A DNA stretch of 24,281 bases from a virus. The translations under genes and the position numbers were made by a program. This document shows, one piece after another, positions 16,449 through 17,980 of this stretch. Position 1 is the stretch's first letter, and each line of letters begins with the position of its first letter. The notes beneath the pieces were generated by a model. The model saw only the letters and a list, made by a program, of their open reading frames with translations. It did no database searches and had not been told where the DNA came from. The DNA is taken from positions 1 through 24,281 of the IMG/VR virus record IMGVR_UViG_3300021961_000617. The stretch is one strand, 5' to 3'.

Positions 16449-17330
16449 TTAGGCCGGTACAGCAATCGGGAACATCGTTGCCGGAGCAGCAGCGAGGTCA
16501 CCTTTACGCAGCAGTTGAACACCGTACAGCGTATCAGCGGTGAACAGGTCACCCAAATACTCTTGCTTGTACTGCGTCTGAGCGCGAACACCCATTTGCT
16601 CCACGAGGACAGCAGCGTCTTTGTGGAACATCAGAGCGATACGAGCAGAGCCGGTAGCGGTGTCGCAGTTCGGGGTAACAAACACTTCAACCCCGTAAAC
16701 GTCACCAATCTTACCGTTGCGGATGGTGTTGCCGTTGCCGACCTCACCCACAAACGCTTGCTCAGTAAAACGCGAAATGCCCATCAGCGTGTTACGGCTG
16801 GACGGAGGAACAACCAGAACACGGTCTTCCATCGGCGCATCGTTGTCATCAAGACGCTGGATCATGCGACGAATACCAGCATCGGTCAGAGCCGAGGCGT
16901 TAGGAGAACCAGAAGTATAGGCAGTCGAGCCATCACCACCGATATAGGCGTTAGCATACGCCGCAGTCCCTGCACCGTTGTTCGAGGAGCGACCCAGCAG
17001 AATCAGGTCAGAGTCTTTCTGACGAGCCAGCGCGTAGCCAGCCTCAGAGGTGTAGAACTGACGCAGACTCGCTAGAGCTTGCTTCGACACGATATCTTCA
17101 ATCAGACGCGAATACTCATAATGCTTGTTAATCGAGACAGCAACTTCTTGCTCAGTGTTGTACTGAATCGTAACAGCCGTATTAGCCGCCTTTGCCGCAG
17201 CCGTACCGCGAACAGGAACAGGAATGTGAACTGTGTCACCTTTCTTGCCCTTCATCGACATACGTTTGACAAGATTTGCCATAACGAGTTTTTTCTCGTA
17301 GGCAGCAACAATCTCGTCCGACCAAATTTC
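16449..17330 (-). CDS. Major capsid protein, exon 2 (C-terminal 293 residues)
   Basis: Exon 2 of the HK97-fold-type major capsid gene. It begins GAA ATT TGG at 17330 (EIWSDEIVAAYEKKLV) and continues in frame through the internal Met at 17282 (MANLVKRMSMKGKKGDTVHI). 'FIPEIWSDE---AY--NLV-ANLV--M---GKKGDT-HIP-P-RG', 'NKHYEYSRLIEDI', 'QALASLRQFYT-EAGYALA' and 'DRVLVVPPSSRNTL' are features of the major capsid family of T7/P22-like environmental phages. Starting at 17282 would remove the conserved EIWSDEIVAAYE. There is also no Shine-Dalgarno before 17282, where the bases read GAAAAAACTCGTT. With exon 1 (22 residues, 17915-17980) the spliced product is 315 aa, a normal length. A hairpin follows the stop. 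Confidence 0.92.
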   Translation of the reverse strand, partial: EIWSDEIVAAYEKKLVMANLVKRMSMKGKKGDTVHIPVPVRGTAAAKAANTAVTIQYNTEQEVAVSINKHYEYSRLIEDIVSKQALASLRQFYTSEAGYALARQKDSDLILLGRSSNNGAGTAAYANAYIGGDGSTAYTSGSPNASALTDAGIRRMIQRLDDNDAPMEDRVLVVPPSSRNTLMGISRFTEQAFVGEVGNGNTIRNGKIGDVYGVEVFVTPNCDTATGSARIALMFHKDAAVLVEQMGVRAQTQYKQEYLGDLFTADTLYGVQLLRKGDLAAAPATMFPIAVPA

Positions 17331-17362
17331 CCACTAGCTAAACAGCTAGTCCGACTATCGCA

Positions 17363-17806
17363 TCACAGTAAAGACTTTAAAGTCTCCTGCGCCTTCTCAC
17401 TTAGTCTGTGCGGGTCACGCTTCATTGCTTTAAGCTCATCCCGAATAAACTGTCTTGCTGGATCAGCGACCTGTTTACCCTTTACAGTATTCTCCATTGA
17501 GAGGAGAAACTTGGCTTGTTGTTGTTTGATTGTTAAGTGATTACTAAAGTTGCGTAAGAACGGACAAACTTTACTGTAACCAACAAGCTCCCAAGTTGTA
17601 GAGTCTTGCCAGTTAGCGTTATTGCTTTGTCGATCTGTTAAGACACCTCCAAAATTAGTTTGAAGGTTTTCTAAAACAAACCTAGCGCAGTTCGCCATTC
17701 CTATTCTAACCCTAGGCCGTACATAGATCCCATTAGTAATTTGGACATCTAAACAGCCTTCACCATCAATCAAACCTGCAATATACTTCCAACTGTATCG
17801 CTTCAT
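17363..17806 (-). CDS. Intron-encoded LAGLIDADG homing endonuclease (147 aa)
   Basis: Residues 9-19 read IAGLIDGEGCL, the LAGLIDADG helix with the acidic catalytic position Glu16. There is one motif only and 147 aa total, so it should act as a homodimer like I-CreI, cutting the intronless capsid allele so that repair copies the intron. The middle contains RVRIGMANCARFVLENLQTN ... FGGVL and LLSMENTVKGKQ, as expected for the core and C-terminal helices of the family. The start ATG (17806-17804) follows AAGGAGG at 4 nt. The stop (TGA, 17365-17363) lies only 32 nt before the 3' splice site, so the last codons overlap intron core sequence. The neighbouring frame is capsid, hence the target is predicted to be the TTTATCCCT/GAAATTTGG junction. 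Confidence 0.9.
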   Translation of the reverse strand: MKRYSWKYIAGLIDGEGCLDVQITNGIYVRPRVRIGMANCARFVLENLQTNFGGVLTDRQSNNANWQDSTTWELVGYSKVCPFLRNFSNHLTIKQQQAKFLLSMENTVKGKQVADPARQFIRDELKAMKRDPHRLSEKAQETLKSLL

Positions 17807-17823
17807 ACAACCTCCTTGGTTGT
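17807..17823 (-). promoter_or_regulatory. Hairpin folding the endonuclease ribosome-binding site
   Basis: On the minus strand ACAACC-AAGGA-GGTTGT forms a perfect 6-bp stem that ends exactly at the ATG. The Shine-Dalgarno AAGGAGG lies partly in the 5-nt loop and partly in the 3' arm. Such a structure would lower or regulate translation of the endonuclease. Phage T4 intron endonucleases are known to be restrained by similar RNA structure at their ribosome-binding sites. Confidence 0.6.
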
Positions 17824-17914
17824 GAACTGCGTAGTTGTTGTGTCGTGTTCCCTCTGGTTCTTGTTACAGTCCCAGTTATTCAGAGAAGGTTTTACATCCC
17901 CAAAATTATAGGCT

Positions 17915-17980
17915 AGGGATAAAAGTAGCCGCAGACGTCACAGTGACGTTGTTGGCTGTACCAAAAGCACCAGAAGCCAT
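17915..17980 (-). CDS. Major capsid protein, exon 1 (N-terminal 22 residues)
   Basis: ATG at 17980-17978 is preceded by GGAGTAAATT and starts MASGAFGTANN... ending ...ATFIP at codon 22 (CCT, 17917-17915). The '-ATFIPE-WSDE' phrase is the conserved start of this capsid family. The next codons in genomic DNA (AGC CTA TAA) stop the frame at once, while joining codon 22 to GAA at 17330 restores FIP-EIWSDE. The gene for the scaffold ends 21 bp upstream, the expected neighbour of a capsid gene. Confidence 0.88.

Follow-up and report, generated by a model that had tools for sequence, protein, structure and literature searches.

The window, a 24,281-base IMG/VR virus record analysed at its full length, carries the gene of a major capsid protein (MCP) which is interrupted after the codons for FIP. 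Its features are summarized in Table 1. The first-pass annotation had placed an intron on the minus strand at this point, with G as its last base and a frame restored to FIP-EIW, and the sequence agrees with these coordinates throughout; exon 2 starts with GAA ATT TGG (E-I-W). An ORF of 147 aa with a LAGLIDADG motif, absent from that annotation, occupies three quarters of the insertion.

Table 1. Predicted features of the interrupted capsid gene in the window.
Feature	Position	Strand	Sequence or content	Basis
MCP exon 1	17915..17980	-	22 codons, MASGAFGTANNVTVTSAATFIP	continuous with exon 2 in L002 and other uninterrupted relatives
Predicted group I intron	17331..17914	-	584 nt, LAGLIDADG gene in P6, last base G	exact empty site in L002; P3/P6/P7 covariation
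MCP exon 2	16449..17330	-	EIWSDEIVAAYEKKLV-MANLVKRM..., phrog_267 major head protein	phrog_267 E 1.4e-42, Phage_capsid_2 E 1.6e-11
Single-motif LAGLIDADG homing endonuclease ORF	17363..17806	-	147 aa	Pfam, PDB profile, AF2/Foldseek
P1 3' strand / internal guide	17896..17901	-	GGGGAU	pairs with AUCCCU at the end of exon 1 (17915-17920)
P10 strand	17902..17907	-	AAUUUU	pairs with GAAAUU at the start of exon 2 (17325-17330), 6/6
P3 5' strand	17883..17889	-	CCUUCUC	15 distinct strand pairs
P3 3' strand	17392..17398	-	GAGAAGG, inside endonuclease gene	covariation
P4	17854..17875	-	CUGG 17875-17872 / CCAG 17857-17854, closes a short variable P5	sequence reading, conserved in relatives
P6 5' strand	17844..17852	-	GGG-AA-CACG	pairs with CGUG-A-CCC
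P6 3' strand	17412..17419	-	CGUG-A-CCC, inside endonuclease gene	covariation
P7 5' strand	17402..17406	-	GACUA, motif CACAGACUA, inside endonuclease gene	covariation
P7 3' strand	17353..17357	-	UAGUC, motif GAUAGUCGG	covariation
P9 hairpin	17333..17350	-	ACUAGCU-GUUU-AGCUAGU	variable yet self-complementary in relatives, by inspection

The borders of the insertion were compared with an uninterrupted relative, L002, using blastn. On the upstream side the alignment runs gap-free over 2950 nt with 95.2% identity and ends at 17915. On the downstream side it resumes at 17330 and continues nearly gap-free for ~1650 nt with 89.8% identity. The 584 bases in between are absent from L002, whose empty site shows that exact removal of the insertion restores the capsid gene. 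Size and borders are identical to those which the first-pass annotation had predicted from the guide sequence, and were obtained here independently of it. The 316-aa uninterrupted capsid protein of L002 is 98% identical to the joined reading of the window. Nearly all other best capsid relatives are uninterrupted as well, and 76 full-length uninterrupted ones are found on the MCP tree.

The capsid ORF called automatically starts at the ATG at 17282. That this call is a mis-start lacking the N-terminus had been recognized before; the deficit, given then as 22 residues, amounts to 38 residues of the joined protein (22 in exon 1 and 16 of exon 2 before the first ATG).

The RNA structure of the insertion was evaluated helix by helix. 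P1 (AUCCCU/GGGGAU) and P10 (GAAAUU/AAUUUU) pair completely, with a U.G pair at the splice site as claimed in the first-pass annotation. In relatives the guide tracks its exon (GUCCCU/GGGGAC, AUUCCU/GGGAAU, UUGCCU/GGGCAA), partly by construction, the guide having been picked by pairing. Taken alone, a P10 of this kind would not be unusual by chance; what counts is its persistence across the family, where 5.1 of 6 pairs are formed on average as compared to 3.2 with the letters shuffled.

Covariation was analysed in a set of 20 distinct relatives, with the strands of P3, P6 and P7 cut by hand at fixed anchors. Of the 320 cells in these helices 99.4% are paired, and changes on both sides occur at 10 of the 16 pairs, resulting in 45 double-change cells versus 10.1±2.4 after shuffling. 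Controls with slid strands are paired to 34-45%. P3 alone, represented by 15 strand pairs, has 104 of 105 cells paired, a level reached by none of 10,000 shuffles (mean 78, maximum 94). P6 was recognized because CAC/GUG turns to CUC/GAG and CUU/AAG in relatives, both strands changing together. P7 changes from GACUA/UAGUC to GACUG/CAGUC in 4 of the 20 rows. P4 and the 3' strand of P7 add little independent support, since P4 was part of the search pattern and the P7 strand was chosen by pairing. A first reading of P4 (AACUG with CAGUU) fails in L101 and L134 and was rejected.

The folding energy of the single sequence lies below that of shuffled versions (z -5.25). It is not counted as evidence because the core is missing from the minimum-energy fold. 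Taken together, the insertion exhibits the paired core of a group I intron (P3-P7 and P4-P6), the U.G pair in P1, P10 and the terminal G. The interpretation as a capsid-gene intron of group I, its junctions fixed by the guide, is supported by these sequence features.

Rfam does not recognize the intron. The first-pass annotation had named a search with Intron_gpI as a check and a missing hit as an argument against its own reading, and this hit is indeed missing: no Intron_gpI match was obtained on the window at the gathering threshold and at E<=10, nor with RF00028 alone on the record. A scan of 20 related loci at the gathering threshold gave no match at the family site either. The missing match is outweighed by the covariation and the empty site. 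Failure to match RF00028 is a limit of the library and no defining feature of group I introns. Probably the model misses the intron because the 444-nt endonuclease gene sits in P6 with its 3' end encoding the 3' strand of P6, P7 and the 3' strand of P3. RF00028 follows the same secondary-structure plan (P1, P3-P10); in L107 (3064-3334, 81 bits) it detects a further group I intron, placed in the capsid gene downstream of the family one, but it scores none of the family-site introns scanned. On contig L125 the Rfam search detects a group I intron with 58.7 bits at another place (2312-2605). A search of viral contigs by one fixed DNA pattern revealed no short version of the family intron free of the endonuclease.

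The endonuclease matches Pfam LAGLIDADG_1 (E 7e-6) and, by PDB profile, I-MsoI and I-CvuI. Its motif reads AGLIDGEG, and D14, G15 and E16 are invariant in relatives. An AlphaFold2 model (pLDDT 94) has I-CvuI as best Foldseek match and the fold of I-CvuI/I-CreI. Motif, catalytic acid and fold are those of a single-motif LAGLIDADG homing endonuclease; the PHROGs label of the family, 'HNH endonuclease', looks like a mislabel. The last codons (MKRDPHRLSEKAQ) double as ribozyme sequence for P6', P7 and P3'. In the seven pairs with a dS estimate dN ranges from 0.05 to 0.21 versus a dS of 0.26-2.6, an eighth pair (window and L118) being without such an estimate. Bacterial and archaeal genomes contain relatives at 23-38% identity only.

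Two further elements were observed at the endonuclease gene. The 8-mer ATGAAGCG at its start (17799-17806) is repeated at 17418-17425 just before the 3' strand of P6. The two copies may delimit the stretch that came into the intron with the gene. Just before the ATG a hairpin (17807-17823, ACAACC-AAGGA-GGUUGU) varies in sequence among relatives with pairing kept. It contains the letters of a ribosome-binding site in loop and stem, and may control translation of the endonuclease.

Our scans yielded 73 distinct combinations of endonuclease and flank, and members of the family were encountered in dozens of independent contigs originating from many samples. All relatives with a readable flanking exon are inserted in the capsid motif FIPE(I/V/L)W. 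A readable downstream exon continues with the capsid N-terminus unless a second insertion or the contig end intervenes. Seven of seven divergent downstream exons tested belong to phrog_267, and capsid identities range down to 22-35%. At the main site 48 members with lengths of 569-733 nt rejoin in frame; the search required the terminal G but not the exon-terminal T, which is nevertheless present in all. Exon 1 ends in T in 43 of 43 parsed intron alleles versus 19 of 63 empty ones, and the corresponding Fisher value of 7e-15 overstates the evidence because the rows are related and not independent.

On the capsid tree (117 rows) presence and absence of the intron require at least 12 changes, 9 of them forced by well-supported branches. 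This number is no rate, since the tree is a quick one and sampling favours relatives of the window. L003 lacks the intron while the near-identical capsid of L130 contains it. On the upstream side their DNA is 99% identical, whereas the 800 nt that follow the site reach 89-93%. The exchange boundary coincides sharply with the insertion, as is expected if the intron is copied together with one flank. The patchy presence among near-identical capsids hence implies mobility. From the distribution we infer that the endonuclease is site-specific.

Second insertions were also encountered. A short way downstream of the family site, in or beside the same capsid gene, they carry another LAGLIDADG ORF, with two matched stretches of phrog_5046, in L121 (8892-9746), L131 (4042-4815) and L241 (3080-4039). 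Stacked introns seem to be common in these capsid genes. L121 moreover has a cluster of four tRNA genes (2647-2954).

Several other explanations were weighed. A free-standing homing endonuclease gene (HEG) could have split the capsid gene, the halves being separate proteins or the capsid being made only from the ATG at 17282. Split essential genes beside HEGs occur in phages, and automated calling does yield an ORF from 17282. We nevertheless regard this as very improbable: translation of exon 1 would terminate after 24 residues, the last two being SL, the uninterrupted relatives do possess the N-terminal arm, and the sequences flanking the ORF take part in covarying group I helices, for which a bare HEG insertion has no need. 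There is just as little to be said for a degenerate intron, i.e. one that homed and spliced in the past and lost its activity in the copy of the window. Such decay would be compatible with the record being a metagenomic fragment, but the core helices are all intact, the endonuclease is open, has kept the invariant motif residues and shows a dN far below dS in comparison with L129. Moreover, normal shells could not be formed by a phage whose capsid mRNA stays unspliced.

LAGLIDADG endonucleases occur in inteins too, so that splicing at the protein level instead of an intron had to be considered. This was rejected and has a next to negligible probability, as no open frame leads through the insert: in the window the third codon beyond exon 1 is already an in-frame stop, and in 55 of 55 relatives such a stop lies at most four codons from the splice point. 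The endonuclease also has its own ATG, and no intein family is among the matches. An assembly artefact or chimera, conceivable for a single metagenomic contig, is rejected as practically impossible by the recurrence of the same architecture in independent contigs and by the exact restoration of the frame.

With great confidence, though from sequence, we thus regard the insertion as a mobile group I intron with putative splicing and homing. In the folded transcript, the last bases of exon 1 would be paired with the guide in P1. Attack by a P7-bound guanosine behind the U at 17915 would release exon 1, which in turn would attack behind the G at 17331 while P10 keeps exon 2 in place, rejoining the capsid mRNA as FIP-EIW. 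On unspliced RNA ribosomes would run into the early stop. The intron-encoded protein, presumably a homodimer like I-CreI, would cut capsid genes lacking the intron at their conserved FIPEIW codons; during repair, intron and flanking exon would be copied into the cut gene.

The splice point itself is seemingly not fixed. Four positions are in use within 10 nt, and the guide has been re-matched to each of them. Most introns follow F(I/V)P (site A). A shift by +6 nt (L144) and by +7 nt (L131) occurs in one contig each, and L203, L208, L212, L214, L217 and L227 exhibit the +10 nt position. The guide of the shifted introns matches its own exon each time, one guide base being N in L144. Identical exon-2 proteins are combined with a site-A intron in L129 and L149 and with an intron 10 nt away in L208 and L212. 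Introns of the +10 and of the usual form intermingle in one clade of the endonuclease tree, supported at 100/99. Tentatively, and with rather more doubt than conviction, we suggest that one endonuclease lineage cutting the FIPEIW codons may have carried ribozymes which moved the splice point (after CCT; +6; +7; +10) through changes in guide and P10, with the endonucleases remaining close relatives of each other. If true, homing site and splice site evolve separately, and none, A and D alleles compete at one capsid locus, possibly harming intronless rivals in co-infection.

In the open literature, with most subscription journals outside, we found no published survey of a capsid intron family at FIPE(I/V/L)W. 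The family, its targeting of a single motif and the shifting splice point seem to be new. These introns would represent a mobile family which Rfam does not see and which is specialized on a single conserved motif in a widespread capsid protein of phages. Such capsids are truncated by annotation pipelines, as in the window, with a separate mid-gene ORF being reported; surveys using the capsid as marker are therefore affected. Close capsids with no intron, with one at one position or with one 10 nt away offer a natural test of how a homing intron changes its splice site. The same none, A and +10 alleles also allow a test of the intron's role in competition between co-infecting phages, which is reported to have been shown for a different phage, PhiPA3 (PMC11620839).

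The first-pass annotation had called an intron in the capsid gene uncommon. This is only half right, given two precedents and the number of environmental contigs found here. The major capsid gene of mycobacteriophage LittleE contains an intron with a LAGLIDADG ORF, as shown by RT-PCR and N-terminal sequencing of the capsid (PMC3706429), and hence the kind of intron seen in the window is not new. Both introns have a U at the exon end and a G at the intron end. LittleE is an actinobacterial siphophage with an HK97-like capsid gene and an 819 bp intron whose endonuclease ORF lies on the opposite strand (PMC3706429), whereas in the window the ORF is placed in P6 in sense orientation and shares bases with the catalytic core. 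Lactococcal phage Tuc2009 likewise has a group I intron in a capsid gene, a likeness drawn from its citation in PMC3706429 and not from sequence.

Among annotated phage genes, the closest relatives of the endonuclease (31-39% identity) are LAGLIDADG HEGs of Gordonia, Mycobacterium and Streptomyces phages and of cyanophage PP. Many of these are located in or beside methylase genes, and none is annotated in a capsid gene. The fold is shared with the intron-encoded single-motif enzymes I-CvuI, I-CreI and I-MsoI of green algae, with ~16-24% identity in fold alignments. Those enzymes belong to another target gene, and in the window the C-terminal MKRDPHRLSEKAQ serves the ribozyme as well as the protein.
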